From the NCBI RefSeq assembly GCF_900141755.1, contig NZ_LT670844.1, forward strand, positions 1,922,001 to 1,986,000: 64,000 bases of DNA, read 5' to 3'. This DNA is from Bradyrhizobium lablabi. GTDB taxonomy: Bacteria > Pseudomonadota > Alphaproteobacteria > Rhizobiales > Xanthobacteraceae. Positions 25,983 to 52,364 of this stretch are shown in pieces (positions within the stretch are counted from its first letter, which is position 1; each line of letters opens with the position of its first letter). A program made the position numbers and the translations under genes. Below the pieces are notes generated by a model that had not been told where the DNA came from, ran no database searches, and saw only the letters and a program-made list of their open reading frames with translations.

Positions 25983-27113
25983 TCAGATGACGAACGGCTG
26001 GTCAATCGCGAATTTGTCAGAGAGCAGTTGCGGCGCCCCATCGCCGATCAAGACGAGATCCTGCAGGTGCCAGTGCAGGCGCTGCGGTTCGACGGCCAGG
26101 ATCATTCCCTTTTCCAGCACGATAGCGCTGCCCCTGCGCAACACCGGCTCTTGCTGGTGAAACCATGGTCCCATGCCGTGCCCGACCAGCGATGCGGTGT
26201 AATCGATGCCCTTCTTCCTGAACTCTGCGACCGCAAAGGCATATATCTCGCCGGCCGTTACCCCGGCCTGGCAGCGGTCAATGGTCTTGCGGTGAATCTC
26301 GAGCGTCAGCTCATAGCCGCGCATCTGTTCGGCGCTCGGCGGCCCCAGAATGGCGAGCCGCGACTGATGCCCCGGACACCCATCGAAATAGGCGACATAG
26401 TCGTTGCGGACAAAATCGCCTGTGCGAAACGCGACATCGCTTTCGCCGCCATACATCACGTCGTTCGAACTTGAATTCAGGATGCCATGCACATAGGCAG
26501 CTCCCCGCCGCATGCAGGCCGCGACCATGCGGGCATGCACCTCACGCTCGGTTTCGCCGTCCCGGATGGTCGGGAAGATCTCGACCAGCACGTCGTCGAG
26601 CAGATCGGCCGCACTTTTCTGCTGGGCGATTTCGCCCGTCGTCTTGATCCATCGGACTTCGTCCATCATCCGCGAACAGTTGAACATTTCGAGCCTCGGC
26701 AGGGCGCACTGGATCTCCTCCCAGTGCGCCGCGCTCAGTCCATCCTGTTCGAAGCCGATCCGGGCTGCCGCCAGACCGGCATCGGCAATCAATTCCGCGA
26801 CCCGGCTGTAGAGCGATTTCTCGTAGGCCTGATAGACTTCGACCTGCGCGATCCACGATTCGCGCCGCGCCAGTTTCTCCGCAAAGGCGTCGAGGACGAT
26901 GACCGGCGCGCCATGACGCGGCCATAGCACCATGAAGCCGCGCACCGTACTGGCAATGTCGAGATGCCGGGCGAGCGTGCCCGGCATCGCCATGCCCGAC
27001 AGATAGGTAAAGTTTACGCCGGTCCGGACAGCGACCGCCGCCAGTCCATTCCTGTCCATGAAGGCATTGAGCCGGTCGATATTGGCCAGGACGCTGCGGC
27101 CGTGGTTTGGCAT
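25983..27113 (-). CDS. Creatinase-like M24 family hydrolase lacking canonical metal ligands
   Basis: The 376-residue protein has the two-part M24 layout: an N-terminal domain (NGLAAVAVRTGVNFTYLSGM) and a pita-bread C-terminal domain. The catalytic-side histidine (LVGHGMGPWFHQQEPVL) and one glutamate (GMILAVEP) are kept. The position of the second metal aspartate is histidine (FDGCPGHQSR), and the last glutamate is glutamine (WHLQDLVLI). Loss of two of five ligands points to a metal-independent enzyme like creatinase, which hydrolyses a C-N bond of a guanidino/urea compound, rather than a peptidase. It ends the BMP-transporter operon, 27 bases after the cupin gene. Confidence 0.85.
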   Translation of the reverse strand: MPNHGRSVLANIDRLNAFMDRNGLAAVAVRTGVNFTYLSGMAMPGTLARHLDIASTVRGFMVLWPRHGAPVIVLDAFAEKLARRESWIAQVEVYQAYEKSLYSRVAELIADAGLAAARIGFEQDGLSAAHWEEIQCALPRLEMFNCSRMMDEVRWIKTTGEIAQQKSAADLLDDVLVEIFPTIRDGETEREVHARMVAACMRRGAAYVHGILNSSSNDVMYGGESDVAFRTGDFVRNDYVAYFDGCPGHQSRLAILGPPSAEQMRGYELTLEIHRKTIDRCQAGVTAGEIYAFAVAEFRKKGIDYTASLVGHGMGPWFHQQEPVLRRGSAIVLEKGMILAVEPQRLHWHLQDLVLIGDGAPQLLSDKFAIDQPFVI

Positions 27114-27140
27114 CTCGGTATCCCCGGGATCGATGGAAAC

Positions 27141-27473
27141 CTAGCGCGCGTACCTGACTTCGAACGTCACCACCCCGCCCTCGGTCCGGTACGGGCCGTG
27201 CTTCATGCCCGGTGGCCGGCAGGCATACATGCCCTTCTCGAAGAACTGGTCGCCGTCCCACTGATTGCCTTCGAGGATGTAGACCTCTTCCCAGAAGTCA
27301 TGCACGAACGTCTCGGTGCTGGCGCAGCCCGGATCGACCTTCAGCATACGCGTCACGAACATCCTGTCGGGATCCTCGGTCAGAATCTTCTGGTAGTGAC
27401 CGGGAGGTGCGCCCTCGACCGGCACCCAGGGAATGTTCTCGGTCGGGAAGAATTCCAGTTCAGGCTTCGGCAT
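27141..27473 (-). CDS. Cupin-domain protein
   Basis: The 110-residue protein is a single small beta barrel. ETFVHDFWEEVYILEGNQWD supplies cupin motif 1 and PPGMKHGPYRTEGGVVTFEV motif 2, with likely metal ligands H, E and a second H. It resembles ChrR-type cupins. A role as a small isomerase, lyase or hydrolase acting on the imported compound is possible. It lies between the permease and M24 genes in the same orientation, with gaps of 62 and 27 bases, so it belongs to that operon. Confidence 0.8.
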   Translation of the reverse strand: MPKPELEFFPTENIPWVPVEGAPPGHYQKILTEDPDRMFVTRMLKVDPGCASTETFVHDFWEEVYILEGNQWDGDQFFEKGMYACRPPGMKHGPYRTEGGVVTFEVRYAR

Positions 27474-27535
27474 CGTCTTCTCCTTTGGTGGCTGTCAGAT
27501 CGAATGCGTGCACTTGCATGATGCGACCCCGGGCT

Positions 27536-28477
27536 TCATCGCTCTTCACGCACGTAGGGCAGTGCGAGCGCCTCGGGCGCGCCGGCGCGGCGCTTCATGG
27601 CGCGTCGGCCCATCACCGCCAGCACGATGATCGCCATCAGATAGGGGAACATCTGCATGACGTAGGTCGAGATCAGATAGAACACGCCGCCCAGAACCTG
27701 CGACTCCGCGATCAGGATGTAAGCGAAGCCGAACAGATAGGCGCCGCCGAGCAGTTTGATCGGGTGCCAGCCGGCAAAGATCACGAGCGCCAGCGCTACC
27801 CAGCCACGGCCGGCGATCATGCCCTCGGCCCAGCTGCTTAAATAGGCGACCGACAGGAACGCCCCGGCCAGTCCGGCCATGCCGGCGCCGAACATGACCG
27901 CGAGATAGCGAATCCGGAACACGTTCCAGCCGACAACGTCGACGGCGCTCGGCTTCTCGCCGGCCGCGCGCAGCGCCAGGCCGGGCCGCGTCCGGTAGAG
28001 GAAATACCAGACCACCGCGACCATGATGTAGGAGAGATAGACCAGCACATTTTGATTGAAGAAGATCGGGCCGAGCGCGGGGATATCCGAAACCAGCGGA
28101 ATCGGAAGCGCGTGCACGCTCTGGGGAACGTCAATGGCGACCAGGCCGTGCCCGGCAAAGCTCGACAGCCCGTCGCCGAACAGCACCATGGCGAGGCCGG
28201 CGACGACGTGATCGGCGCGGATCGTCACCGTCAACAGCGCGAACAACAGCCCGAGCAGCATGCCGGCCACGATCGCGCAGAGGATGCCGATCACGACCGA
28301 TCCCGAGCCGAGCGTCGCGGCCACCGCCGTGAGCGCGCCCACCAGCATGATGCCTTCGATCCCCAGATTCAGCACGCCGCTGCGTTCGACCACGAGTTCG
28401 CCGAGCGCGGCCAACAGCAGCGGGCTTGCAGCGGCCACGCTGGTCGCCAGCATGCTGATGAGGACCGTCATGTTCAT
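27536..28477 (-). CDS. ABC transporter permease, BMP/nucleoside type (second subunit)
   Basis: The 313-residue protein is polytopic with eight or more hydrophobic helices. The block LGELVVERSGVLNLGIEGIMLVGA is diagnostic for the YufQ/NupQ permease of the guanosine-type transporter family. The ATG at 28477 overlaps the stop of the preceding permease (ATGA), which sets the start; the longer frame upstream is arginine-rich and is a shadow of that gene. It should pair with the product of 28474-29520 in the inner membrane. Confidence 0.9.
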   Translation of the reverse strand: MNMTVLISMLATSVAAASPLLLAALGELVVERSGVLNLGIEGIMLVGALTAVAATLGSGSVVIGILCAIVAGMLLGLLFALLTVTIRADHVVAGLAMVLFGDGLSSFAGHGLVAIDVPQSVHALPIPLVSDIPALGPIFFNQNVLVYLSYIMVAVVWYFLYRTRPGLALRAAGEKPSAVDVVGWNVFRIRYLAVMFGAGMAGLAGAFLSVAYLSSWAEGMIAGRGWVALALVIFAGWHPIKLLGGAYLFGFAYILIAESQVLGGVFYLISTYVMQMFPYLMAIIVLAVMGRRAMKRRAGAPEALALPYVREER

Positions 28478-29520
28478 GCGCGGTCGACCTTCGCGAGCCG
28501 CGCACGCGGCCGGAACCCTCTCGCCAGGGTCAGGCCGGCGAGCGCAAAAAGGATGATCGCGGCCTGCATGATCCGAACCAGCGACGGATCGATCTGGGCG
28601 ATCTGCAGCGCCGAGCCGCCCTGGATCAGGATGCCGTAGAACACCGACATAACCAGCACCAGCACTGGATCGTGCCCGGCCAGCCACGAGACGAGAATAC
28701 CGAGATAGCCATAGCCCGGCGTCAGCACATAGAGACGTCCGGCCGTCCCGCTCACTTGCTGGATTCCCGCTATGCCGGCCAGCGCGCCGCTGAGGAGCAT
28801 GACGGCGATGGTGACGCGGGTGACGCTGATAGCCGCGTACCGCGCCGCTTCGTGCGAGTGGCCGACGACGGTGATCTCGAAACCCCAGCGGCTGAACCGC
28901 AGCAGCACGCTCAGCGCCAGCGCCACCAGCGGCGCCGCGATGATGCAGATATCGAGTTCGGACCCTATCGACGGCAGCCTTGCCTCATCGGGAAAAAATG
29001 CCGAATAGGGCCAGCCGCCGCCGGGCTCGCGCCATGGTCCATAGACTAGCGATTGCACCCACAGAATGGCCACGTAGTTCAACATCAGGCTCGACAACAC
29101 TTCGTTGACACCAAGCCAGACTTTCAGGGCCGCCGGAATGAAGGCCCAGATCGCACCGCAGGCGATGCCGCAGCCGGCGACCGCGAGCAACATCAGCGGA
29201 GGTGGCAGCGATGTATTGAGCGCGACGAGACCGGCGCCGAAGGCGCCCATCACCATCTGGCCCTCGCCGCCGATATTCCAGACCCGCGCTCGAAAGGCGA
29301 TGGCCGCGGCCAGACCGGTAAAGGCGATCGGCTCGGCAAACACCAGCGAACTCTCGAGCGCGCTCCACGAGCCGACAGCGCCGTCATAGATGGCACGAAA
29401 AGTTTCAAGAACGGGCGCATGCACGGCAACGAGGACAAGCGACGAGGCCGCCAGCCCAAGCAGGACCGACAGCACGAAGGCGCCAGGCATCCGCAGCCAG
29501 ATCGGAATGGCCATCATCAA
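28474..29520 (-). CDS. ABC transporter permease, BMP/nucleoside type (first subunit)
   Basis: The 348-residue polytopic protein carries the family signature FAEPIAFTGLAAAIAFRARVWNIGGEGQMVMGAFGAG, split over two helices, and GVNEVLSSLMLNYVAI, as in YufP/NupP. It overlaps the ATPase gene upstream and the second permease downstream, each by four bases. The overlaps show a tightly coupled operon: SBP, ATPase, permease, permease, cupin, M24. Confidence 0.9.
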   Translation of the reverse strand: MMMAIPIWLRMPGAFVLSVLLGLAASSLVLVAVHAPVLETFRAIYDGAVGSWSALESSLVFAEPIAFTGLAAAIAFRARVWNIGGEGQMVMGAFGAGLVALNTSLPPPLMLLAVAGCGIACGAIWAFIPAALKVWLGVNEVLSSLMLNYVAILWVQSLVYGPWREPGGGWPYSAFFPDEARLPSIGSELDICIIAAPLVALALSVLLRFSRWGFEITVVGHSHEAARYAAISVTRVTIAVMLLSGALAGIAGIQQVSGTAGRLYVLTPGYGYLGILVSWLAGHDPVLVLVMSVFYGILIQGGSALQIAQIDPSLVRIMQAAIILFALAGLTLARGFRPRARLAKVDRA

Positions 29521-31040
29521 GCCGCGTCCAGCAAATGGCCGCCCATCACGGCGCCGATGTCGCCGCGATTGGCATCCTGGCGATGCCAGGTGCCGCAGAT
29601 GGCGCCGTCATAGAGTACCATCACACGGTCGGATAATTGCAGGATCTCGTCGAGGTCCTCGGAAATGAGAATGATCCCGGCACCGCTCTCGCGCAGGTCG
29701 AGCAGGCGATCGTGCACCGCGCGCGCCGCCGCGATATCGAGACCACGGGTCGGTTGCGCGACGATGAACGCGACAGGCTCGGCCAGCACTTCGCGCCCAA
29801 TCAGGATCTTCTGCTGGTTGCCGCCGGAAAGCGAGCGGACCGCAGTGGCGGTGCCCGGCGTGCGCACGTCGTAATCGCGGATAAGGTTCTCGGCGCGCTC
29901 GCGCGCCACCCGCCGGCTGACCCACATGCCTTTCGCCAGCGGCCGCTCGCGATAGTCGCGAAGCAGCATGTTGTCGGTCATGTCGAGCTGCGGGACCAAT
30001 CCCATTCCGAGACGATCCTCGGGCACGAAGCGCAACCCGGCGCGAAGCCGCGACAGTGCATTGGCCTTTGTCATGTCATGGCCGTTGAGCCAGATCTGTC
30101 CCTGCTGAAGGGAGCGGATTCCGGCCACGCATTCGGCTAGTTCGACCTGGCCGTTGCCCGCAACGCCAGCAATGCCGAGGATTTCCCCGGCCCGCACCTC
30201 AAGCGTCACGCCCTTCAGGCCGCTGGCGCCGCGGTCGGCCGTCGCGCGGCCTTCCCGGACCTTGAGCACGGCGCCGCCGAAATTGCCGGCGCTGATCAGT
30301 CGCTGTGGCGGCATCGCGGCGCCGACCATCAACGCACCGAGTTCCTGGATCGAGGCTTCCGACTTGCCGAAGGACGCAACGACGCGACCGCGCCGCAGCA
30401 CCGTGACCCGGTCGGCGGTAGCAGCGACTTCGCGCAGCTTGTGGGTGATGAACACGACATATTTGCCCGCGTCCGCGAGCCGGCGCAGCGCGACGTAGAG
30501 ATCGGCCGCTTCGCCGGGCGTCAGCATCGAAGTCGGCTCGTCCAGCAGCAGGAAATCCGCGCCCCGGTAGAGCAACTTCAGGATTTCGACCTTTTGCCGC
30601 TGACCGACGGTCAATTGCCAGATCAGCGCATGGGGATCGATATGCAGCCCGTGCTCGCGTCCCACGGCTTCGACGCGCTGGGCCGCCTCGCGCCGATGCA
30701 GCCGGAGCGAGGATTCGGTCGCCCCGAGCAGGATATTATCGAGCACGGAAAAGGCATTCACCAGTTGAAAATGCTGGTGAACCATGCCGATCCCGCGACG
30801 AACCGCATCCCACGGCGAGCGAAACCTGGTCTTCTCGCCGTCGATGAAGATTTCACCGCTGTCGGGCATATAGACGCCCGACAGGATGTTCATCAGCGTC
30901 GATTTGCCGGCGCCGTTTTCGCCGAGCAGCGCGTGAATTTCTCCGCGCCGCAAGGTGAGATCGACGCGGTCGTTGGCGACGGTCTCGCCGAAGCGCTTGC
31001 TGATCGACGACAGTAAAACGCCTTCGCCGGCTGAGGCCAT
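29517..31040 (-). CDS. ABC transporter ATP-binding protein, duplicated NBD, BMP/nucleoside type
   Basis: The 507-residue protein has two ATPase domains. The first has Walker A GENGAGKST, signature LTVGQRQKVEIL and Walker B FLLLDEPTSML. The second has a degenerate Walker A (GIAGVAGNGQVEL) with an intact LSGGNQQKILIGREVL. This asymmetry is normal for RbsA/YufO-type subunits. It drives import through the two permeases encoded next. The start lies 24 bases after the binding-protein stop. Confidence 0.92.
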   Translation of the reverse strand: MASAGEGVLLSSISKRFGETVANDRVDLTLRRGEIHALLGENGAGKSTLMNILSGVYMPDSGEIFIDGEKTRFRSPWDAVRRGIGMVHQHFQLVNAFSVLDNILLGATESSLRLHRREAAQRVEAVGREHGLHIDPHALIWQLTVGQRQKVEILKLLYRGADFLLLDEPTSMLTPGEAADLYVALRRLADAGKYVVFITHKLREVAATADRVTVLRRGRVVASFGKSEASIQELGALMVGAAMPPQRLISAGNFGGAVLKVREGRATADRGASGLKGVTLEVRAGEILGIAGVAGNGQVELAECVAGIRSLQQGQIWLNGHDMTKANALSRLRAGLRFVPEDRLGMGLVPQLDMTDNMLLRDYRERPLAKGMWVSRRVARERAENLIRDYDVRTPGTATAVRSLSGGNQQKILIGREVLAEPVAFIVAQPTRGLDIAAARAVHDRLLDLRESGAGIILISEDLDEILQLSDRVMVLYDGAICGTWHRQDANRGDIGAVMGGHLLDAA

Positions 31041-31064
31041 GAGGCTGATCCCTGGCTATCGAGA

Positions 31065-32144
31065 TTATTTCGCCGCGCCTTGCACTCCTGCCACAAGCCA
31101 GTTCATCTTGGTGGCGGCGTCTTCGGAGCTGAGCTCGCCGCCGGCGGGAACGCGCAGCTTGCCCTCATTATCCTCGATCGGCCCGGCAAAGACTTTCAGC
31201 TCGCCCGACATGATCTTCTGCTTGGCCGCTTCCACCGCGTGCTTGGCCTCGTCGGTCACCATCGGGCCATAGGGCAACAGCACCACGATGCCGCTTTTCA
31301 GGTCGCCGAGATCGCGCGTGGATTCAAACTTGTTGGCCTTCACGGCTTCGACGGCCTTGACGTAAAACGGACCCCAATTCCAGGCGCTGCCGCTGAGGAA
31401 AGCCTGCGGCGCCGCGAACGACCAGTCGGCGTTCGAGGTCATGCCCCATTTGCCCTTTGCCGCGGCCGCCTGCAGCGTAGCCGAGGAGTCGAGGTGGTTG
31501 ACGATGATATCAGCCCCGGCGCTGAGCAGCGCATCGGCGGATTCCTTCTCCTTCGGCGGGTCGTACCAGCTGTTGACCCAGTTGGTGACGACCTTGGCGT
31601 TCGGATTGACCGATTTGACGCCGAGCGCGAACGCGTTCACGCCCGAGACGACGGCCGAATAAGGAAAGGCGCCGGAAAACCCGATGATGTTGGTCTTGGT
31701 CATCTTGCCGGCAAGGACACCCTCGAGATAGCGGACCTCTTCCAGCCTGCCATAGTAGGAGGCGACGTTTTTCGGGCCCTTCGGGTCGGACATCTGCACG
31801 ACGAAGTCGACCTCGGGGTGTTTCTTGGCGATCTCGGGAATAAAGGTTCCGTAGCCATAGCTGTTGGCAAAGATGACCTTGTTGCCCTTGGCGATCAGGT
31901 TGTTGATCACGGGCACCACGCCAGGGCCGTCAGCGACCGATTCGACGCGGGTGATATCGAGGTCAGGCACGTGCTCCTGCAGGTATTTGGCCGACTCGGT
32001 ATTGGCCCGAACCCACGACGATCCCGACGCCTGCGAAAATTCGACAAAAGCCACCTTGAGCTTTTCGTCGGCGACGGCCTGATTTGCGAACAACAATCCG
32101 CCGATCAGAGACATCAGCACGATACGCACTCGATCTAATTTCAC
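31065..32144 (-). CDS. BMP-family substrate-binding protein
   Basis: The 359-residue protein has a Sec signal peptide (cleavage after NQAVA) and no lipobox. It shows the BMP family order: VAFVEFSQASGSSWVR, the asparagine/glycine strand VIFANSYGYGTFIPEIA, HPEVDFVVQMSD, YLEGVLAGKMTKTNIIGFSG and ALGVKSVNPNAKV. Known members bind purine nucleosides or related amides. The start is a GTG at 32144 with GGAG eight bases upstream. It is the first gene of the minus-strand operon and is divergent from an XRE-cupin regulator, which may control it. Confidence 0.9.
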   Translation of the reverse strand: MKLDRVRIVLMSLIGGLLFANQAVADEKLKVAFVEFSQASGSSWVRANTESAKYLQEHVPDLDITRVESVADGPGVVPVINNLIAKGNKVIFANSYGYGTFIPEIAKKHPEVDFVVQMSDPKGPKNVASYYGRLEEVRYLEGVLAGKMTKTNIIGFSGAFPYSAVVSGVNAFALGVKSVNPNAKVVTNWVNSWYDPPKEKESADALLSAGADIIVNHLDSSATLQAAAAKGKWGMTSNADWSFAAPQAFLSGSAWNWGPFYVKAVEAVKANKFESTRDLGDLKSGIVVLLPYGPMVTDEAKHAVEAAKQKIMSGELKVFAGPIEDNEGKLRVPAGGELSSEDAATKMNWLVAGVQGAAK

Positions 32145-32230
32145 GGGTAGGTCTCCATTTGAAGAGCGGCGCTCAGGTCTGCCGCACGTCAGCGCGGCAC
32201 ACCTGAATACGATGCAACTCACATGCCATG

Positions 32231-32329
32231 GAGGAAACTCTGGAAAACCTAGGTTATTCGGCTTCCTGCCGCCGCATCTGACGCGAAAAACAGCAACATG
32301 CCCATGAATTAGAGGAAACTGCTTTCATG
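32231..32329. promoter_or_regulatory. Candidate operator region between the BMP operon and the XRE regulator
   Basis: The 9-mer GAGGAAACT occurs twice (32231-32239 and 32312-32320). The second copy sits inside an inverted repeat CATGAA (32303-32308) / TTCATG (32324-32329). TGCTTTCATG at 32320-32329 recurs in inverse orientation at 33140-33149, before the isochorismatase genes. These are plausible sites for the nearby XRE-cupin regulator. The rest of the 32145-32500 gap has no gene. Confidence 0.4.
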
Positions 32330-32500
32330 GTTTGCAAAATGCCCCGTACGCGATAAATGGAATGCTCAATGGCCTGGCCCATGGCAGCGCCGCTGCGGGC
32401 GTTGGCAGGGGACAGGCAATCGCCTCCGAAGTGCCGGATTGCCAGCGCCGGCGGTTAAACGGCAGGATACCAGTTCTTGGCGACTCGCGGAGAGGTTTTA

Positions 32501-33118
32501 GTGAAGAAGGCAACGTCAGCGACTCGATTTCCCCGAGACGGGTCGGCTCAAGACGAACTGGCGCTCGGCGTAAAACTGAAGCACGCGCGGATCGCCAAAG
32601 CCATGCGGCTCGCCGATCTCGCCGCGGCCTCCGGCTGTTCCGAAAGCCTGATCTCGAAGATCGAAAATCGGAAGGCCACCCCTTCGCTCAATACGCTGCA
32701 CCGCCTTGCAAAGGGTCTCGGCATCACGATCGCCACGCTGCTGAGTGAACAGACCCCGGCGCATGGCATCATCATGCGCGAGGGGCAGCGACCGGTGCTG
32801 AGCCGGATCGGGCTCGGCGGTTTCGGCGTCGACGGCGTTGAGACCGAGCTGCTGATTCCATTTGGCGCCGACTCGGCGCTGCAGGCGACCTTGCTTCGCG
32901 TTCAGCCGGGCGCGCGTAGCGACGGCATGCGCCAGCACGAGGGCGACGAAGTCGGCTACATCGTCACCGGCGAGATCGCCCTGACCGTGGAAGGCGATAC
33001 TTATGCGCTGAAGGCCGGCGATGCTTTCTTCTTTCCCTCCATGCGCCCGCACGGCGTCGCCAATCCCGGCGAGGCGGCCGCCATGATCGTGTGGGTGAAT
33101 ACGCCGCCCACGCTGTGA
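32501..33118 (+). CDS. XRE-family regulator with C-terminal cupin
   Basis: The 205-residue protein has a helix-turn-helix (MRLADLAAASGCSESLISKIENRKATPSLNTL, given in two halves around SLISKIEN) at about 25-75. A small-molecule-sensing cupin follows (LRVQPGARSDGMRQHEGDEVGYIVTGEI, DAFFFPSMRPHGVANPG). PuuR and related regulators of amine and purine use have the same layout. A GTG at 32501 with GGAG upstream is preferred over an earlier TTG at 32477. Its position between the BMP operon and the isochorismatase pair suggests control of both. A paralogue lies at 36724-37323. Confidence 0.88.
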   Translation: MKKATSATRFPRDGSAQDELALGVKLKHARIAKAMRLADLAAASGCSESLISKIENRKATPSLNTLHRLAKGLGITIATLLSEQTPAHGIIMREGQRPVLSRIGLGGFGVDGVETELLIPFGADSALQATLLRVQPGARSDGMRQHEGDEVGYIVTGEIALTVEGDTYALKAGDAFFFPSMRPHGVANPGEAAAMIVWVNTPPTL

Positions 33119-33139
33119 GCAGGGCGCCTTCTTTCTGCT

Positions 33140-33149
33140 CATGAAAGCA
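33140..33149 (+). promoter_or_regulatory. Possible shared operator before the isochorismatase pair
   Basis: CATGAAAGCA is the exact complement of the 10-mer at 32320-32329 in front of the BMP operon. It lies 93 bp upstream of the first amidohydrolase gene and 22 bp after the regulator stop codon. A common regulator could bind both sites. Confidence 0.3.
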
Positions 33150-33241
33150 CTTGACTATGGTGCAATTCTTGCTCGTAGTGGCGCAAATGCGCGACCGTCG
33201 CATGCGCCAGCTCAACCCACGATGGACCGACGGAGACCCCG

Positions 33242-44916: not shown

Positions 44917-45027
44917 GATCGTTTCCGGTGGAACAGCGTCCCGCGAAGCGGCAATCGATTTCCTTCGACAATGCGACAGCGACGAGCGAGACGCAGCAAA
45001 ATCGCCGGTCCCGCTGACAATGCCGGC

Positions 45028-46287
45028 TCAGCCCTTCTTGATGCCCTGAAACGTCCGAGAATAGGGCGGTTGCTTCATGTAGGTCTCCGGATCGTACTTC
45101 CAGAATTGCGACACGGCGGGATAGCTGGTGGTCGGCACGTTCCAGAACTTGCCGTCGGCGCGCTTCACGACCTTGCGAATGTAGACGTCGTAGATCGGGT
45201 TGCCGTAGGCATCGAGCTTGACCGACTTGCCGAGCGGCGACCCGCCGAGCTCGGTCTTCAGGACGGTGTCGATCAGGGCCTCGCGATCCTCCGCCTTGCC
45301 GTCCATCTTCTTCAACGCGGCGTCGATCCACATCATGCCGGAATGCATCGAGAAGCCGTAGAGCGAGGGGATCTTGCCGTACTTCGCCTCGTATTCCCTG
45401 ACAAATTTCTGCGTCACCGGATTGTCCGAGCCCTCGGCGAAATGCGCCGGCGACACGATGCCTTCGCAGTCATCGCCGAGCGTCCGGATCACGGACTGGT
45501 CGGTCCCGTTCATCGCGGCCAATAGCGGCGTCTTCGCCTTGAGGCCGAAGCTCGCATATTGCTGGATGAAGCGGGTGGCGTCGGCCCCGGTTTCCATCGT
45601 GAAGATGGCATCGACCTTGAGATCGGCAAGCTGGCCTAGATAGGGGCTGAAGTCCGCCGTGTTGAGCGGATGCCAAAATTGCTGCACGATCTCGCCGCCG
45701 CCCTCGGTGAACACCTGGGCGAGACCGCCGCACTGCTCGTGACCGAAAGTGTAGTCCTGGCTGACGGTCGCGATCTTCCGGTAGCCCTGCTTCAGCGCCC
45801 AGTCGCCGAGCGGATGGGTGAATTCACTGGCACTGTAGCCGGCGATGCGGATCACGTTCCTGATGCGCTGGCGCTGGGTCAGGTCGTCTGCCGCGATGAT
45901 CGGAATGAAGTATGGCGTTCCGGTGCCCTTGACGTAGTTGGCGACAGCAAGCCCGGTATTGGCCAGGAGATTGCCGATCAGCATATGACAATTGCCCTGC
46001 TCGACCAGTCGGCGCGCCTTTTGCAGCGCGGTGTCCGGATTGGAGGCATCATCCTCGATCGAGAGCTCGACCTTGCGCCCAGCCATCTCGTTGTTCACCT
46101 GCCCGAGATAGAACTGCACACCCTCGACCATTTCCTTGCCGCCCGACGCGACGACGCCGGTGAGCGGCGCCAGCACGCCGATCCTGATCGGCCCCGCCTG
46201 CGCGATGGCGCTGCGCCAGGGCGCCGTTCCCGTGCCCAGGGCGGCCAGCCCCACCGTGGTGGTCTTCAGAAATCGCCTGCGGTCCAT
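45028..46287 (-). CDS. Amide/branched-chain-type substrate-binding protein
   Basis: The 419-residue protein has a twin-arginine leader (MDRRRFLKTTTVGLAALGTG). Its type 1 binding fold is of the amide/urea/branched-chain class: IRIGVLAPLTGVVASGGKEM, RRLVEQGNCHMLIGNLLANTGLAV and YTFGHEQCGGLAQVF. Such receptors bind amides, urea or amino acids. AAGGAG six bases before the ATG at 46287 fixes the start; a longer upstream frame overlaps the permease end. Its place inside the Liv cluster, between permease and ATPases, identifies it as the receptor. Confidence 0.92.
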   Translation of the reverse strand: MDRRRFLKTTTVGLAALGTGTAPWRSAIAQAGPIRIGVLAPLTGVVASGGKEMVEGVQFYLGQVNNEMAGRKVELSIEDDASNPDTALQKARRLVEQGNCHMLIGNLLANTGLAVANYVKGTGTPYFIPIIAADDLTQRQRIRNVIRIAGYSASEFTHPLGDWALKQGYRKIATVSQDYTFGHEQCGGLAQVFTEGGGEIVQQFWHPLNTADFSPYLGQLADLKVDAIFTMETGADATRFIQQYASFGLKAKTPLLAAMNGTDQSVIRTLGDDCEGIVSPAHFAEGSDNPVTQKFVREYEAKYGKIPSLYGFSMHSGMMWIDAALKKMDGKAEDREALIDTVLKTELGGSPLGKSVKLDAYGNPIYDVYIRKVVKRADGKFWNVPTTSYPAVSQFWKYDPETYMKQPPYSRTFQGIKKG

Positions 46288-46312
46288 TTCGATCTCCTTT
46301 GGGGAAGCGTTT

Positions 46313-47284
46313 TTACTGTCGCACCTTGCGCGCCGAAACGGCGCGCAGCTTGCCGATGATGCCCTCGGGGGCAAAGATCATGATCAGGATGAAAGTGATG
46401 CCGAGCACCATCTGCCAGCGCTCGGTATGGGCGCTGACGATGTTCTCCAGCGCGATAATCGCGGCCGCGCCGACAAACGAGCCAAACAGCGTACCGACGC
46501 CGCCTGCGACCATCATCAGCACGCCCTCGACCGATTGCGCCAGCCCGACCGTCGACGGGCTGACGAAATTGTTGAACGTCGCATAGAGCGCGCCGGCTAC
46601 GCCGGCAAAGAAGCCCGACGCCGTAAAGCCGATGAACAGATGCAGCGGCACGTTATATCCGAGGCTTCGCATCCGGCTTTCGCTGTCGCGGATGCCGCGC
46701 AGTGTCAGCCCGAACGGCGAACGCACGAAACGCCACATGGCATATGTCACTACTGCGGCCCCGGCGAGCACTGCCCAGTAGAACCTGTTGTGCGCCAAAA
46801 GGATCACTGGGCGGACGTCACCGCGGATACCATTCTCGCCACCCGTGACCTGGGTCCATCGCAGGCAGATCCCCCACACGATCATGCCCAGCGCGAGCGT
46901 CAGCAGCAGAAAATACACTCCCGAGGTGCGCACGGCGAGCAGCGCGAATATCGCCGCGATCAAGGTGGCGGCGAGAACGCCGAGCGCGAACGCCGCGGCC
47001 GGCGGCAACCCGGCCTGAACGCTGGCATAGATCACGACATAGGTGGATACGCCGAAGATGGCGCCGTGGCCGAGCGAAGTGCGTCCGGCAAAGCCGCCGA
47101 GAATGTCGATCGACATCGCGAGGATGCCGAAGATCAGCACCTCCGTGGCAAGTCCGACCTGATAGGTCGACAGCACCAGCGGTAACGCCGCCGCTGCCGC
47201 GACAATGATGGCGGCGATCGACGCATCGCCACCGGTCATGCCGGCGACCCTTGCGGAGACGAAGCTGGATCGCGCGTTCATCAT
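46313..47284 (-). CDS. Branched-chain/amide ABC permease, LivM type
   Basis: The 323-residue membrane protein has the LivM block GFAGRTSLGHGAIFGVSTYVV and the C-terminal EGVLMMVAGGVGTLFGSFVG. About nine hydrophobic helices are seen. It overlaps the LivH-type gene by four bases, and the binding-protein gene follows 25 bases later. Confidence 0.92.
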   Translation of the reverse strand: MMNARSSFVSARVAGMTGGDASIAAIIVAAAAALPLVLSTYQVGLATEVLIFGILAMSIDILGGFAGRTSLGHGAIFGVSTYVVIYASVQAGLPPAAAFALGVLAATLIAAIFALLAVRTSGVYFLLLTLALGMIVWGICLRWTQVTGGENGIRGDVRPVILLAHNRFYWAVLAGAAVVTYAMWRFVRSPFGLTLRGIRDSESRMRSLGYNVPLHLFIGFTASGFFAGVAGALYATFNNFVSPSTVGLAQSVEGVLMMVAGGVGTLFGSFVGAAAIIALENIVSAHTERWQMVLGITFILIMIFAPEGIIGKLRAVSARKVRQ

Positions 47285-48141
47285 GCCGCTCGTCCGAACA
47301 GGCCGAGCGGGCGGAACGCCAGCAGCACCGCCATCGGGCCGAAGATCACGAAATAAGCGAGTTCGGGAAATAGCACCTGGCCCAGCGTATTGAGCAGCCC
47401 AACCAACAGACTGCCGATGGCAACGCCGACCAGGCTGCCGCGTCCACCGATGATCACGACGGCGAGGCTGAATACCAGGATCTCGGCGTCGGCCGATGGA
47501 TAAAGCGACAGAAACGCGCCGCCCATCAACCCGCCGAGCCCAGCCAGCGCCGAGCCGAGCAGAAAGGTGATCAGCAGCACCCGGCGGATGTCGACGCCGG
47601 AGGCTTCCACCATCTCGGCGTCATCGACGCCGGCGCGGATCAGCGCGCCCAGCCTTGTATGATTGAGCAGCAGCCAGAGCGCGGCGAACAGGACGATTCC
47701 GGTAGCCAGCACGAACAGCCGGTAGGCCGGATAATAGACGCCGAACGCGCGCAGCCCGCCACGCAGCATTGGCGGGATCGGCACCGTGAAACTGTCGCCA
47801 CCCCAGATCACAAGCGCCAGGTCCTTCAGCACGAAGGCGACGCCGAGCGTCAGCAGCACCTGACGCAACTCGTTGCCGCGCACGAAGCGCAACAGGCCCT
47901 GTTCGAGCGCAAAGCCGATCGCCGCGACCGACGCCATCGCGCCGACGCCGCCGAGCAGGAAGCTGCCGGTTCGGGTCGCCACGTCATAACCGACATAGCC
48001 GCCGAACAGATAGAGCGCGCCATGCGCCAGATTGACGATGCGCAACAGACCGAAAATCAATGTAAAGCCGCTGGCCACCACGAACAGCAGGGCGGCGAAG
48101 GTCAATCCATTGAGAATCTGAAAGAGGCTCATCCGTTCCAT
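47281..48141 (-). CDS. Branched-chain/amide ABC permease, LivH type
   Basis: The 286-residue membrane protein reads SLFQILNGLTFAALLFVVAS, GLLRIVNLAHGALYLFGGYV and FSLAVVIIGGRGSLVGVAIG, the LivH pattern. It forms a heterodimeric channel with the LivM-type protein. The gene starts nine bases after the stop of a deacetylase-family gene, so importer and enzymes are in one operon. Confidence 0.92.
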   Translation of the reverse strand: MERMSLFQILNGLTFAALLFVVASGFTLIFGLLRIVNLAHGALYLFGGYVGYDVATRTGSFLLGGVGAMASVAAIGFALEQGLLRFVRGNELRQVLLTLGVAFVLKDLALVIWGGDSFTVPIPPMLRGGLRAFGVYYPAYRLFVLATGIVLFAALWLLLNHTRLGALIRAGVDDAEMVEASGVDIRRVLLITFLLGSALAGLGGLMGGAFLSLYPSADAEILVFSLAVVIIGGRGSLVGVAIGSLLVGLLNTLGQVLFPELAYFVIFGPMAVLLAFRPLGLFGRAA

Positions 48142-48150
48142 AAATTGTGT

Positions 48151-49029
48151 CTAGGGCGCCTTCGGTCCCACCGAGAGGTACCAGTCGAGGATCTGTTCAC
48201 CGGTCATGAAAGCGACATCGGATTTCTTCCGGATGGTTTCGAAGATGCGGCGAAAATATTTCAGGCGATGCGGCACGCCCATGATGTAGGGATGCACAAC
48301 CAATGCCATGACCCGGGCGGAACCCTCCGCATCTTCATAAATCTGCTCGAACTGGTCGATGGCGCGCTGGTAGTATTCCGAGGCCTGGTGGTGCTGGATC
48401 AGCATCATTGCCACGTCGTTGCATTCCTGGGTATAGGGCACGTTGACGATCGGTGTGGAAGTGGTCTTCAGCCAGACCGGCTGATCATCGAGAACCCAGT
48501 CGGCGACGTAGTCGTAGCCTTCCTGCTTGAGCAGGTCCGGCGTCTCCCAGGTTTCAGTGAGGCCCGGTCCAAGCCAGCCGCGCGGCCGCTTTCCGGTGGC
48601 GGCTTCGATCACATCGGCGGTCTTGCGAATGTCTTCGCGCTCGTTCTCCACCTTCTGCATGTTGCGCTGGGTAAAGCCGTGGCCCATGAATTCCCAGTTT
48701 CGCTCCAGCGCCGCCTTCACGATCGGCGGATAGGCTGTCAGCGCCGAGCCGTTGATCGCGAGCACGCCGGGGATCTTGTGGTCGTCGAATACCTTGAGCA
48801 GCCGCCAGAATCCGACGCGGTTGCCGTATTCATGCCAGGCCCAGTTCGGAATATCCGGCGTCGGCGAGCCGCCGGCCGGCGGCGTCAGCACCGTGCGCGG
48901 CATCGTCTGCTTGGGATCCCACTCCTCGACATTGACAATCACCCACACCGCCATGCGGGCGCCGTTCGGCAGTTTGAGCGGCGAGCGGTTCGCGATCGGC
49001 GAATAAGAGATGCGTTCGGTGGGCAGCAT
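48151..49029 (-). CDS. Polysaccharide-deacetylase-family hydrolase, PuuE-like group
   Basis: The 292-residue protein has a NodB fold without the usual TFDDG motif. The first acidic position is in MAVWVIVNVEEWDP, followed by WHEYGNRVGFWRLLKVFDDH, WEFMGHGFTQRN, GWLGPGLTETWETPDLL and the late histidine ALVVHPYIMG. It closely resembles the product of 49736-50638 and only distantly that of 34592-35515. Cytosolic PuuE-like enzymes hydrolyse cyclic or linear amides. It lies between the FAH-fold gene (two-base gap) and the LivH-type permease. Confidence 0.87.
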   Translation of the reverse strand: MLPTERISYSPIANRSPLKLPNGARMAVWVIVNVEEWDPKQTMPRTVLTPPAGGSPTPDIPNWAWHEYGNRVGFWRLLKVFDDHKIPGVLAINGSALTAYPPIVKAALERNWEFMGHGFTQRNMQKVENEREDIRKTADVIEAATGKRPRGWLGPGLTETWETPDLLKQEGYDYVADWVLDDQPVWLKTTSTPIVNVPYTQECNDVAMMLIQHHQASEYYQRAIDQFEQIYEDAEGSARVMALVVHPYIMGVPHRLKYFRRIFETIRKKSDVAFMTGEQILDWYLSVGPKAP

Positions 49030-49031
49030 GG

Positions 49032-49739
49032 TCAGGCCTCTGTTGGCGTGATGGTGATGGTGAGCGAAGGCAGTCCGTCGATCTGCGCGCTGATCAGATC
49101 ACCGGGAACGACGGGGCCGACGCCGGCCGGCGTGCCGGTGTAGACCAGGTCGCCGGCAGCGAGCGTGACTTGCTGCGACAATTGCGCAATCACTTCGGGG
49201 ACGCTCCAGATCATCTGCCCGATGTCGCCACGCTGGCGCTCGCTCCCGTTCACCGACAGCGTGATGGCGCAGCCCTTGAAATGCCGGGCATCGCGCGCCC
49301 GCGAGATCGGGCCGCACGGCGCCGAGGCATCAAAACTCTTGCCGACCTCCCACGGTAACCGCAGATCGCGGGCATCGCGCTGGCGGTCGCGCCGCGTCAG
49401 ATCGATGCCGGCGGCATAGCCCCAGACATGATCGAGCGCGCGCCCGACCGGGATGTTGCGCCCGGCCAGACCGATCGCGATCACCAACTCCACCTCGAAC
49501 TGGAAGTCGGCGGTGAACGGCGGATACGGTACATGCGCGCCATCGCAGACCACGGCATCGCGCGGCTTCTGGAAGAAGAACGGCGGATCTCGCTCGTCGG
49601 CTTCCTTCATCTCGCGGATATGATCGACGTAATTTCGGCCGACGCAATAAACGCGGCGCACGGGAAACATGCCGCCGCCAGCGACCGGCACCTGGGTCGG
49701 CGGCATGTCGGGCAATATGCGTTGCGCCGAGACGGTCAT
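49032..49739 (-). CDS. Fumarylacetoacetate hydrolase-family protein
   Basis: The 235-residue protein has the FAH fold: VYCVGRNYVDHIREMKEAD, FFFQKPRDAV, FEVELVIAIGLAGRNI with the metal glutamates, GYAAGIDLTRRDRQ, KSFDASAPCGPI and LVYTGTPAGVGPV. Members cleave C-C bonds of acylpyruvates, hydrate or decarboxylate dicarboxylates, or isomerise. The ATG at 49739 overlaps the previous stop (ATGA). Its position between two PuuE-like genes suggests that it acts on the carbon skeleton left after ring opening. Confidence 0.9.
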   Translation of the reverse strand: MTVSAQRILPDMPPTQVPVAGGGMFPVRRVYCVGRNYVDHIREMKEADERDPPFFFQKPRDAVVCDGAHVPYPPFTADFQFEVELVIAIGLAGRNIPVGRALDHVWGYAAGIDLTRRDRQRDARDLRLPWEVGKSFDASAPCGPISRARDARHFKGCAITLSVNGSERQRGDIGQMIWSVPEVIAQLSQQVTLAAGDLVYTGTPAGVGPVVPGDLISAQIDGLPSLTITITPTEA

Positions 49740-50638
49740 GGCTTCGATCCCGACTGTTCGGCCATTTGCCCCTTGTACCAGTCGAGGATTTGCTCGCCGT
49801 TCCAATGCAGAACACCGTCGAACTTGTTGACGTAATCGTAGATCGCCTCAAGAAACTTGATCCGGAACGGCTGGCCGCTGATGTAGGGATGGACCGCGAG
49901 CGACAGGATTTTCGGCCGAACCTTGCTCTCCTCATAGAGCCGGTCGAAGCAGTCGATGGCGCGCTTCATCATGTGATCGCTTTCGTGATGCTGCACCATC
50001 ATCATCGGGATGTCGTTCAGCTCGACCGTATAGGGCAGCGTTACCAGCGGCCCCTTGGCGGTGCGGATCGTGGTCGGCTCGTCGTCATAGACCCAGTCGC
50101 CGATATATTTGACGCCAGCTTCAGCGAGATATTCGGGGGTCTGCAGCGTCTGGGTCAGGCCGGGTCCGAGCCAGCCCACCGGGCGCTTGCCGGTGAATTT
50201 CTCGATCACGCCCATCGCGCGCTCGATCATCGCCTTCTGGTCCGGCTCCTTGTGGATCGGCCCCTGTTCATAGGCATGGCCCATGAATTCCCACCCGGCG
50301 TCTCGGGCTTGCTGCGCGACGCGCGGGTAATCCTCGCAGACGCGCGCATTGATGGAGAGCGTGGGCGCAATGCCGAGCTTCTTGTAGAGATCGAAAAAAC
50401 GCCATACGCCGACGCGCATGCCGTATTCGTGCCAACTCCAGTTCGGCACGTCCGGCAGCAGCGGAATGCCGGTGGGCGCCGGAATCACCTGCCGGGCCAT
50501 CGGCTTGCCGATGTCCCAAACCTCGAGATTGACGATGCTCCAGATCACGATACGAGCGCCGCCCGGCAACTTCATTGCCGGGCGATCGACGATGGCGGAA
50601 AAGTCGCAGCGGTCGCGCGGCAGCATCGGGCCGGTCAT
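49736..50638 (-). CDS. Polysaccharide-deacetylase-family hydrolase, PuuE-like group
   Basis: The 300-residue protein matches the one at 48151 block by block: IVIWSIVNLEVWDI, WHEYGMRVGVWRFFDLYKKL, WEFMGHAYEQGPI, GWLGPGLTQTLQTPEYL, VTLPYTVELNDIPMMMVQHH and LSLAVHPYISGQPFRIKFLE. The two are probably a duplicated pair with different substrates or a mixed oligomer. It lacks a signal peptide. It follows the third isochorismatase gene by 42 bases. Confidence 0.87.
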   Translation of the reverse strand: MTGPMLPRDRCDFSAIVDRPAMKLPGGARIVIWSIVNLEVWDIGKPMARQVIPAPTGIPLLPDVPNWSWHEYGMRVGVWRFFDLYKKLGIAPTLSINARVCEDYPRVAQQARDAGWEFMGHAYEQGPIHKEPDQKAMIERAMGVIEKFTGKRPVGWLGPGLTQTLQTPEYLAEAGVKYIGDWVYDDEPTTIRTAKGPLVTLPYTVELNDIPMMMVQHHESDHMMKRAIDCFDRLYEESKVRPKILSLAVHPYISGQPFRIKFLEAIYDYVNKFDGVLHWNGEQILDWYKGQMAEQSGSKP

Positions 50639-50680
50639 GGCAAGCTACTCATCGGTCGTTGGGGGAAGGATATTGAACCA

Positions 50681-51382
50681 TTACTCAGGGCTGGTCCGGC
50701 GTGAGGCAAGTCCATCGAGCGCCATGACGGCATCGGTATCCATCACCAAACCGAGGGCCGTCCTGATGCAGGCGAGGCCGGCCGCGTGCAGTTCCGGTCC
50801 GTCCATGCTGTCGACGCAGTCCTCCACGACGATGACGGCATAGTCACGGACATTGGCGGCGGTGGTGGTCGCCAGCACGCAGGAATTGGTGTTCACGCCC
50901 GTGATCAACAGGGTGTTGATGCCGTGCGAACGCAGCACAAAGTCGAGGTCGGTACCGAGAAAGCAATCGTAGCGCTTCTTGGTGTCGACGACGAAGTCGC
51001 CGGGATCGAGCAGTTGCGGCATCACCGTGCAGCCGGGACCACCGATGATGTTGTGGCGCAGGACGTTCTTGCGGGTCGCTGCCGGATCCTCGGCGCGGGT
51101 GCGCCAGAACGGGTTGGCGCGGATTTCCTCGGCGTCGCGATACGACGTCAGCTGATGGATGACGGGAATTCCGACGCTCCGGCACCAATCGAACAACCGC
51201 TTGTTGGCGGCGACGACCCTGGCGGCGACCTCCGGCGAGGTCGGCATCGTCGCCACCGCCATGTCGAGATGACCGCGGTGCAGGTCGATCGCGACCACGG
51301 CCGCTTTCGGGTGATCGACGCCGATACCCCTAGAGATCGGTCGGATGGCTGTTTTGCTGAAGCTGGAACTTGCCGTCGCCAT
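50681..51382 (-). CDS. Isochorismatase-family cysteine amidohydrolase, third copy
   Basis: The 233-residue protein has D33 in AVVAIDLHRGHLD, a lysine in VVDTKKRYDCFLGTDL and the cysteine in GVNTNSCVLATTTAANVRDY. It is the first gene of the minus-strand operon that runs into the Liv-type importer. It is divergent from the GntR regulator, with a 220-bp AT-rich intergenic region that should hold both promoters. It probably removes an amide or carbamoyl group from an intermediate. Confidence 0.9.
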   Translation of the reverse strand: MATASSSFSKTAIRPISRGIGVDHPKAAVVAIDLHRGHLDMAVATMPTSPEVAARVVAANKRLFDWCRSVGIPVIHQLTSYRDAEEIRANPFWRTRAEDPAATRKNVLRHNIIGGPGCTVMPQLLDPGDFVVDTKKRYDCFLGTDLDFVLRSHGINTLLITGVNTNSCVLATTTAANVRDYAVIVVEDCVDSMDGPELHAAGLACIRTALGLVMDTDAVMALDGLASRRTSPE

Positions 51383-51602
51383 CGGATGTGCACTGCCTTG
51401 AGCGAAAATGGTTACCTCATGGTTCGCTCAACAGGAAAGCGAGTCAAACAAAAATTGCATACAGTTTTGCCGATGCATATCATTTGCGCGCCAAGCCTAA
51501 ATAATATGCGAGATTTTTTGATCGATTATCAGTGGATTTATGACGGGTTGTATGATGATCTGTCGATGCCCATCGTAAGTGTATCCAGATTGTCCTCGCG
51601 AG

Positions 51603-52364
51603 ATGGCTGCTTCGATGCCCGATCGCCCCAAACCGCCCCTCTCGCAGCCAGCGCTCGGATTGCGCGCGGGCAATCGCGCGCTCTCGGTGGCGGACCAAAT
51701 TCGGGAGGCCATTCTCGGCGGTTCGATCGGGGCCGGCGAGCGGCTCAACGAGGTCAGGCTGAGCAAGACGCTGGCAGTGTCGCGCACCCCGGTGCGCGCC
51801 GCATTGCAGGCGCTGGCGGGCGAAGGGCTATTGGACTACGCGCCCAATCGCGGTTTCACGGTCCGTGAATTTCCGCTCAGCGCGATCGTCGATGCCTACG
51901 ATATCCGCGCCTCGCTGGAGGGCCTCGCTGCCCGCTTCGCGGCGGAACGCGGTTTCAGTCCGGAGGAAAAGGCCGTGATCGAGCGCAGCCTCTCGGCCGG
52001 CGACACATTGCTGGACCACGGTTCGTTCGAGGCCGGCGACCTCACGCGCTACCGCGACATCAATGGCGACTTCCACGACACGCTGCTCGCCGCCGCCCGC
52101 AACCGCATGCTCGCCGAAATGATCCGGATCTGCCACCACGTGCCGGTGTCGTCTAGTCGCAACATCGTGGCTTTCGAGCATCGTGACGTCCGCCGCCGTC
52201 ACGACGATCACCATCGGATCTATGAAGCCATCATGGCTCGCGAACCGTGGCGCGCGGAAATGCTGATGCGTGAGCATGTCGCCGGCGTAAAGGCATCCCT
52301 GATCAGGCTTTTGACCCAACGCAGCAAGGATATAGGCCCCGTTGACGCTGTTGCCGCCGGTTGA
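51603..52364 (+). CDS. GntR-family transcriptional regulator, FCD subgroup
   Basis: The 253-residue protein has a winged helix (LSVADQIREAILGGSIGAGE, RLNEVRLSKTLAVSRTPVRAAL) and an all-helical FCD ligand domain with the metal/ligand histidines seen in RYRDINGDFHDTLL, RRRHDDHHRIYEAI and LMREHVAGVKASL. FCD regulators typically release DNA on binding an organic acid. Being divergent from the isochorismatase/PuuE/Liv operon, it is the natural candidate to control it. Starts at 51579 or 51615 are also possible; no clear ribosome site decides. Confidence 0.9.
   Translation: MAASMPDRPKPPLSQPALGLRAGNRALSVADQIREAILGGSIGAGERLNEVRLSKTLAVSRTPVRAALQALAGEGLLDYAPNRGFTVREFPLSAIVDAYDIRASLEGLAARFAAERGFSPEEKAVIERSLSAGDTLLDHGSFEAGDLTRYRDINGDFHDTLLAAARNRMLAEMIRICHHVPVSSSRNIVAFEHRDVRRRHDDHHRIYEAIMAREPWRAEMLMREHVAGVKASLIRLLTQRSKDIGPVDAVAAG

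Follow-up and report, generated by a model that had tools for sequence, protein, structure and literature searches.

Gene content and organization of the island

The DNA analysed here (the window; 64,000 nucleotides, C1:1922001-1986000 of the 7.91-Mb single-contig genome of Bradyrhizobium lablabi, labelled G000 in comparisons) carries at 25983-52364 an island of importer and enzyme genes that was read as 27 genes, each (27/27) with a Pfam family match. The island consists of three modules rather than one unit: module A (25983-36686) encodes an AtzT-like BMP-type ATP-binding cassette (ABC) importer, the isochorismatase-fold hydrolases IsoA and IsoB, and a NicC-like hydroxylase with PuuE1; module B (36724-43398) encodes RidA2, RidA1, a CUT2 importer, a DUF1989 protein and a helix-turn-helix (HTH)-cupin regulator; and module C (43464-52364) encodes a Liv importer, PuuE2, an FAH-fold enzyme, PuuE3, the isochorismatase-fold hydrolase IsoC and a GntR regulator. 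PuuE1, PuuE2 and PuuE3 all have the PuuE-like polysaccharide-deacetylase fold. Catabolic islands are common in rhizobia.

Module A begins on the reverse strand with an M24/creatinase-fold protein (25983-27113; PF00557 104 bits, PF01321 59 bits) that missed the equivalog cut-offs, followed by two BMP-type permeases (27536-28477 and 28474-29520; PF02653, 125 and 126 bits), the importer ATPase (29517-31040; PF00005, 169.5 bits) and the BMP binding protein (31065-32222; PF02608), the true start of which is likely inside the listed open reading frame (ORF). The forward strand then encodes an HTH-cupin regulator (32477-33118; PF07883 and PF01381, the PuuR model scoring under its cut-off), IsoA (33242-33937; PF00857, 134 bits) and IsoB (33954-34583; PF00857, 153 bits; the ORF opens at 33858 and the start was set at 33954); ORFs antisense to IsoA and IsoB had no Pfam match. 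PuuE1 (34592-35515) and the NicC-like flavin adenine dinucleotide (FAD) monooxygenase (35556-36686; PF01494) are again on the reverse strand.

On the same strand, module B comprises the second HTH-cupin regulator (36724-37323; PF07883, PF01381), the DUF1989 protein (37545-38480; PF09347, 166.5 bits), the binding protein (38708-39691; PF13407), permease (39731-40744; PF02653) and ATPase (40741-42327; PF00005) of the CUT2 importer, RidA1 (42324-42770; PF01042, 69 bits) and RidA2 (42832-43398; PF01042, 59 bits), the start of which is uncertain. Module C continues on the reverse strand with LivF (43464-44168), LivG (44161-44916), LivK (45028-46290), LivM (46313-47284) and LivH (47281-48141), an importer matching PF00005, PF13458 and PF02653, and with PuuE2 (48151-49029; PF01522), the FAH-fold enzyme (49032-49739; PF01557, 197 bits; PRK10691, 133.5/201), PuuE3 (49736-50638; PF01522) and IsoC (50681-51382; PF00857, 115 bits), and closes with a forward-strand GntR/FCD regulator (51579-52364; PF00392, PF07729). 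The cut-off of the allantoinase model TIGR03212 (424.6 bits) was missed by PuuE1 (386.4 bits), PuuE2 (134.6) and PuuE3 (107.3), and those of RutB (378 bits) and BiuH (370 bits) were missed by IsoB (107.6 and 73 bits, RutB being its best model), IsoC (60.9 and 71) and IsoA (65.1 and 41.6).

An earlier reading made from the sequence alone (the sequence-only reading) had named BMP, CUT2 and Liv importers, three isochorismatase-fold and three PuuE-like hydrolases, two RidA proteins, an FAD monooxygenase, and DUF1989, FAH and M24 proteins, all of which were confirmed by Pfam/NCBIfam. It had also proposed four regulators, where only the two HTH-cupin proteins and the GntR/FCD protein were found; a cupin, a domain that is present only inside the HTH-cupin regulators, no other cupin domain being found; and an RHH domain on the DUF1989 protein, for which there was no Pfam match. 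Of the two four-base overlaps said to tie enzymes to transporters (both TCAT on the forward strand), 42324-42327 indeed joins RidA1 to the CUT2 ATPase, whereas 49736-49739 joins two enzymes, PuuE3 and FAH. The GC content of the island is 0.629, compared to 0.586 for positions 1-25000 and 0.615 for the right flank; a foreign origin by GC was rejected, as five other stretches of the same genome ranged from 0.587 to 0.630. Scans for tRNA and Rfam families gave no match.

Modules B and C in other genomes

Relatives of the DUF1989 protein (E 1e-100) were found in 11 of 195 genomes of the genus, and in six of the 195 (own included) the identity was at least 80%, a cut-off set after inspection of the table; the closest named relative is from Bradyrhizobium sp. 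dw_78 (90%). All five other genomes at or above 80% encode RidA2, the CUT2 importer, DUF1989 and the HTH-cupin regulator of module B. RidA1 is present at 95-96% in G048, G144 and G073, and in G190 and G032 the regulator is followed by a different RidA, 89-91% identical to one in Pseudolabrys. Module B adjoins module C in three of the five: the two are collinear in G048, with a PF04909 gene between them, and C is inverted in G144 and G073. Furthermore, Pseudolabrys sp. Root1462 (L008) has module B, Liv genes, PuuE2 twice, PuuE3 and FAH together, and in between an AtzE-like amidase and a PF04909-protein relative, in a stretch that ends before the expected positions of IsoC and GntR. As ORF calling missed or mis-framed some genes of relatives (such as DUF1989 in L009; the FAD monooxygenase and PuuE1 in L056), maps were also made by tblastn. 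Searches of plasmids with DUF1989 and IsoB as queries gave no match at the limits used.

Module C was followed through IsoC, which has E 1e-50 matches in 16 of the 195 genus genomes, own included. Twelve of the 15 other sites were mapped as L122-L133, with G048, G144 and G073 mapped separately. All 12 have GntR, IsoC and a PuuE3 relative (48-91%), and 11 keep PuuE2, FAH and LivH, the exception being L133 (G020). Two arrangements were seen: L122-L128, one of which is truncated at the end of its stretch, share the window order IsoC-PuuE3-FAH-PuuE2-Liv, and L129-L132 have IsoC-FAH-PuuE2-Liv-PF04909-PuuE3. A PF04909-protein relative lies near module C in nine of the 12 sites, and a weak alpha/beta-hydrolase match (23-25%) lies between GntR and IsoC in 7/7 window-type loci; neither was found in the window. 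In G111 (L131), the neighbours of module C include a RidA1-like gene (60%) and a different CUT2 importer (36-44%). The DUF1989 set (6/195) and the IsoC set (16/195) have five genomes in common (hypergeometric probability 1.1e-5), or four when the own genome is excluded (1.1e-4), in a test that ignores phylogeny and uses the post hoc DUF1989 cut-off.

Parts of module C also occur on plasmids. In Variovorax and Streptomyces (PuuE2 identity 70% in the latter), FAH is annotated next to genes for polysaccharide-deacetylase, TauE/SafE and amidohydrolase proteins and for an MFS transporter, and an unannotated Cupriavidus plasmid carries FAH, PuuE2 (74%), MFS and amidohydrolase genes by similarity; the FAH/PuuE-like/MFS/amidohydrolase cassette of Cupriavidus, Variovorax and Streptomyces corresponds to loci L076, L077 and L078.

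Module B across phyla and the DUF1989 protein

When 49 DUF1989 loci were compared, RidA2, CUT2 and DUF1989 were found together in five actinobacterial loci (L009, L012, L023, L026 and L027), titled Conexibacter, Cryobacterium, Actinomycetota, Nocardiopsaceae and Frankiales, all of them actinobacterial taxa. Four of the five also encode IsoC at 48-60% identity and an AllB-like amidohydrolase, the other, L012, being only 9.9 kb long. The AllB-like proteins, of which two were tested (305 and 293 of 357.85 bits), occur where Bradyrhizobium has PuuE-like enzymes. A TRZ/ATZ-type amidohydrolase is encoded in all five, a PF04909-type protein in L026 and L027, and an alpha/beta hydrolase in L023, L026 and L027. 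Parts that are split over modules B and C in the window thus form one cluster in actinobacteria, the strongest argument for B and C serving one pathway.

The available part of PMC12560246 gives C263, C279 and C343 as the zinc cysteines of the DUF1989 enzyme trimethylamine N-oxide (TMAO) demethylase and H276 and D346 as proposed iron ligands. The three cysteines, the histidine and the aspartate of the DUF1989 metal enzymes are present in the window protein, as C103, C120, C184, H117 and D187, which do not vary between it and its 47 matching ORFs, a number that includes redundant copies; the cysteine spacing is 17/64 compared to 16/64 in TMAO demethylase, and His and Asp lie at the same offsets as the H276 and D346 described there. 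A carboxyguanidine deiminase is likewise a DUF1989 enzyme, as stated in the accessible text of PMC11271267. The window protein missed the UAAP1/UAAP2 models (TIGR03425, 84.3/205.95 bits; TIGR03424, 79.9/284.7 bits) and the curated TMAO demethylase cut-off, and its residues suggest a metal-dependent enzyme acting on C-N bonds. A second DUF1989 gene of the same branch (61%) lies in the own genome at G000:C1:1669267-1670160 (L068); near it, a BMP-type binding protein and a relative with the isochorismatase fold are encoded.

Module A: a paired hydroxylase and hydrolase beside an AtzT-like importer

The best-scoring comparison listed for the NicC-like enzyme is with 6-hydroxynicotinate 3-monooxygenase (8uiq, 5eow; 345 bits). 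The accessible residue list of PMC9304392 has His211 and Tyr215 binding 6-hydroxynicotinate and His47 in the active site, and the same text reports that His47 is likewise not conserved in the fungal HxnX. In the alignment to 8uiq, the window enzyme retains Cys202, His211 and Tyr215 and has Ile in place of His47; the 8uiq chain itself has Gln at position 47, taken here for an engineered form. Ile47 is also found in five relatives at 58-79% identity (G190, G048, G400, G211 and G424; the 58% cut-off was set after table inspection), and three NicC-like relatives outside this clade have His or Gln. PuuE1 (73-82%) is adjacent to the hydroxylase in 5/5 close relatives and in 0/4 of the more distant relatives searched, so Ile47 and the adjacency together define a paired subfamily. 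A Phe or Tyr at the position that we take to be NicC His302 was tried as a mark of the PuuE1-linked clade and rejected, three relatives outside it also having Tyr. The other loci of the pair have a diverging SsuA-type binding-protein gene (5/5) and a MarR gene (4/5); the window pair is instead beside the BMP importer and an HTH-cupin regulator. Compared to PuuE of urate clusters, PuuE1 has 18 positions fixed differently (five versus five proteins), with 95 columns invariant in all ten.

The binding protein of module A is closest to AtzT (6pi5; 230 bits) and 3s99 (211 bits). According to the portion of PMC6834077 consulted, guanine in AtzT is sandwiched by Tyr45 and Trp194 and contacted by Ser97, Glu165, Asn218 and Asn220; this numbering was checked on the pADP-1 sequence, where nine residues stood at the stated numbers. 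The corresponding residues of the window protein are W45, S97, Y98, R139, A165, G169, W194, H218 and D220. Since the aromatic sandwich is kept and the guanine contacts Glu165, Asn218 and Asn220 are changed to A, H and D, the predicted ligand is likely a flat ring, and a guanine importer was rejected.

Relatives of IsoB were absent from 194 other genus genomes (E 1e-45) and 346 other order genomes (E 1e-42), as were BMP binding-protein relatives (E 1e-80) from 326 other class genomes. The idea of one jointly inherited gene set was rejected, as IsoB and the BMP binding protein have no close relatives in the sampled genomes. In a large protein collection both have numerous relatives, with identities reaching 95% for the BMP binding protein and, beyond the window's own 99% cluster, 92% for IsoB. 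With metagenome contigs of equal size taken as the same contig, the contigs themselves not being read, three contigs of >30 kb appeared in both the BMP and the IsoB list and one (58333) in those of IsoB and PuuE1, among the matches listed (shifted controls 0 for both); two shorter coincidences (3193, 5086) were within reach of chance (0.74 expected), and the BMP and PuuE1 lists shared none (0.40 expected). The BMP binding protein and IsoB thus appear to share metagenome contigs. IsoA relatives occur on four plasmids with other neighbours, an ABC importer and TauE/SafE lying directly upstream in three and an ABC importer ~2 kb away in the Roseomonas plasmid. M24 relatives (47-49%) accompany a different ABC importer set rather than module A; one at 48%, in the own genome at G000:C1:4324723, is beside another ABC importer set.

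Linkage of module A to B and C, and flanking DNA

Among the genomes examined, A, B and C are contiguous in the own genome only. G048 and G190, the two other genus members in which a close A pair occurs, hold both B and C and have the pair elsewhere. This co-occurrence (2/2 within 5/194, p 5e-4; cut-off chosen afterwards; G211, G400 and G424 left out) ties A to B+C only suggestively. In an rpoB tree covering 30 of the 195 genomes, the own genome, G048 and G190 are not sisters. In the right flank, a LysR gene (56262-57327) shares 94% DNA identity with a LysR gene of G053 (L122) that lies ~4 kb away from module C there, in the same relative orientation, so module C may have arrived earliest at this site.

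Related insertion-sequence stretches flank the island at 14687-15792 and 58100-59435, and further related stretches lie at either end of the G073 contig carrying B and C (L066, 347-1449 and 18421-18614). Directly right of the island is a reverse-strand gene (52573-53877) for a protein with a type VI secretion system Tle1-like catalytic domain (234 bits), and 7.6 kb to the right are reverse-strand genes for a three-subunit molybdenum hydroxylase (59952-63764; MoCoBD, FAD and 2Fe-2S subunits), a class of enzymes that often hydroxylate N-heterocycles. The left flank encodes a 775-residue STAND NTPase (7148-9475, reverse), an Xre/MbcA/ParS antitoxin and RES-domain toxin pair (16644-17839, forward) and a 1175-residue protein that combines winged-helix regulator, cyclase and AAA domains (20451-23978, reverse).

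Two putative catabolic pathways and alternative explanations

We read the island as two catabolic pathways side by side, one of B+C and one of A, with a probability of roughly 50%; B+C are probably one pathway. This reading draws on the adjacency of B and C in three other genus genomes and Pseudolabrys, the clustering of relatives of B (RidA2, CUT2, DUF1989) with IsoC on four actinobacterial contigs, the CUT2 and RidA1-like unit adjoining C in G111, the metal residues of DUF1989, the restriction of the NicC-like/PuuE1 adjacency to close relatives, and the aromatic sandwich of the A binding protein. From the gene content, module boundaries, linkage and residue conservation observed, we infer substrates and steps as follows. 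In the first pathway an N-rich cyclic compound, most likely a hydantoin- or pyrimidine-type ureide or imide, would be taken up via CUT2 and/or Liv, and PuuE-like enzymes would open the ring by hydrolysis. IsoC may then take off an amide or carbamoyl nitrogen, the DUF1989 metal enzyme and RidA could free more nitrogen via imine/enamine intermediates, and the FAH-fold enzyme would cleave or decarboxylate the carbon skeleton. In the second, a flat aromatic N-heterocycle would be imported by the AtzT-like BMP importer and hydroxylated by the NicC-like flavoenzyme, after which PuuE1 would open the oxidised ring and IsoA/IsoB hydrolyse the amides so formed. Cyclic ureides or imides for B+C and a flat aromatic N-heterocycle for A are our best guess. 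The nitrogen-heterocycle theme of the sequence-only reading is supported. Its single shared pathway is supported for B+C, which are adjacent elsewhere and mixed in the actinobacterial clusters, and is only suggestive for A, the support not extending to all 27 genes. That the sub-operons are never linked in other genomes, which it had named as the finding that would count against it, is not the case for B and C (G048, G144, G073, Pseudolabrys sp. Root1462); for A the unlinking partly holds, the pair lying beside an SsuA-type importer in its five other loci.

Several observations weigh against the two-pathway reading. The five actinobacterial contigs are all metagenome bins, and the island is without AllB-like and TRZ/ATZ-type enzymes, the rest of the genome not having been searched for them. 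Other DUF1989 loci of the branch have different neighbours: a BMP-type binding protein (28-35%) is encoded in many of them, and the Acidimicrobiia loci have a RidA relative immediately upstream. Module C mostly occurs without B, 11 of the 16 IsoC genomes lacking DUF1989 at ≥80%; B and C are ~435 kb apart in G190, and G032 has B, with C absent from the 40-kb stretch retrieved and IsoC unmatched at E 1e-50. Moreover, the curated cut-offs of PuuE, RutB, RutC, BiuH, UAAP1/2 and TMAO demethylase were all missed.

Accretion of independent catabolic operons at an insertion-prone site, without shared function, would account for the contiguity of all three modules being confined to the own genome among those examined, for the solitary C of most of its 16 genomes, and for the insertion-sequence stretches on either side of the island and at the two ends of the G073 contig. 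It would not readily account for B-C adjacency in four other genomes with differing gene orders, for the mixed actinobacterial clusters, or for the presence of B and C in both genus genomes that have a close A pair, when these two and the own genome are not rpoB sisters, and we consider it doubtful. Guanidino or creatinine catabolism around DUF1989 and the M24 creatinase-fold protein would fit the carboxyguanidine deiminase of the DUF1989 family (PMC11271267, accessible text) and the guanylurea hydrolases among isochorismatase-fold proteins (PMC9800807, in the part available). However, the UAAP1/UAAP2 cut-offs were missed (84/206 and 80/285 bits), none of the island proteins matched a urea carboxylase or allophanate hydrolase family in Pfam, and M24 lies in module A, away from DUF1989, making this route unlikely.

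Two further alternatives concern module A. It could be a bacterial counterpart of the nicotinate route of Aspergillus nidulans (HxnX, HxnM, HxnN), with which it shares enzyme classes (NicC-like, PuuE-fold ring opener, amide hydrolases) and the 6-hydroxynicotinate-binding His211 and Tyr215. PuuE1, on the other hand, scores 356 bits with PuuE compared to 53 bits with 3qbu, which is the structural homologue nearest to HxnM (HxnM itself was not compared; PuuE2 scores 63), NicC His47 is replaced by Ile, and counterparts of HxnS, HxnV, HxnT and HxnW were not recognised in the island; such a counterpart is improbable. Ordinary urate/allantoin catabolism of the HpxO and PuuE type is in turn suggested by the closeness of PuuE1 to the PuuE family and by the joint occurrence of a flavin urate hydroxylase gene, uraD and puuE in Pseudanabaena (L143). 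Yet a separate PuuE in the own genome (C1:1710102) passes the curated cut-off with 535 bits where the three island proteins do not, the hydroxylase scores 151/500 bits with the HpxO model versus 345 with NicC, PuuE1 differs from five PuuE at the 18 fixed positions, and no uraD, uraH or allantoicase was found among the island proteins by Pfam. The urate pathway was rejected on the HpxO score, the PuuE differences and the missing urate families, and we regard it as very improbable.

Within the two-pathway reading, a more ambitious version is offered only tentatively: that B+C is an undescribed cross-phylum pathway in which an N-heterocycle is broken down by a DUF1989 metal enzyme, its RidA partner and exchangeable ring-opening enzymes, AllB-like ones in actinobacteria and PuuE-like ones in Bradyrhizobium, and, jointly, that the Ile47 NicC-like/PuuE1 pair represents a new "hydroxylate, then hydrolyse" opening of an aromatic N-ring with no ring-cleaving dioxygenase. 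The protein families are already known; the cross-phylum gene set and the clean paired subfamily are open to direct experiments. If B+C are one pathway, the DUF1989 branch and PuuE-like proteins labelled allantoinase or polysaccharide deacetylase acquire a testable role. In annotation, the Ile47/PuuE1 pairing (6/6 clade members, own included) is a marker separating these enzymes from other NicC-like genes.

Comparison with known systems

A literature search did not find the gene combination described, most subscription journals lying outside its coverage. In the accessible text of a riboflavin paper (PMC12746152) there is one unassigned FAH-like protein, and the words "isochorismatase" and "polysaccharide deacetylase" are absent from it. 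RutB/RutC and BiuH systems resemble the island in having an isochorismatase-fold hydrolase with RidA proteins but differ in that all their cut-offs are missed. Characterized DUF1989 enzymes (TMAO demethylase, carboxyguanidine deiminase) share the zinc cysteines and proposed iron residues with the window protein, which is set apart by missing the curated models and by its neighbours RidA, CUT2 and IsoC.

For module A, PuuE allantoinase (TIGR03212; 3cl6) shares with PuuE1 the fold and much of the sequence (356 bits), and possibly hydrolytic opening of a cyclic ureide as mechanism; PuuE1 differs in its score below the cut-off, its 18 fixed differences and the lack of urate genes around it, and PuuE2 and PuuE3 are far more distant. 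NicC shares Cys202, His211 and Tyr215 with the window enzyme, the clade of which has Ile for His47 and PuuE1 as partner gene. In the fungal nicotinate pathway, as outlined in the accessible part of PMC9304392, the NicC-like hydroxylase HxnX is followed by the cyclic imide hydrolase HxnM and the amidase HxnN; module A similarly combines a NicC-like hydroxylase, a PuuE-related ring opener and an amidase, but its PuuE1 falls on the PuuE side, not near 3qbu (used here in place of P. putida cyclic imide hydrolase or HxnM sequences), and the other Hxn steps were not recognised in the island. Finally, AtzT of pADP-1, which binds guanine and 2-hydroxyatrazine, is matched at 230 bits with Trp194 and Ser97 kept and an aromatic residue at the Tyr45 position, while Glu165, Asn169, Asn218, Asn220 and Thr139 are replaced by A, G, H, D and R in the window protein.

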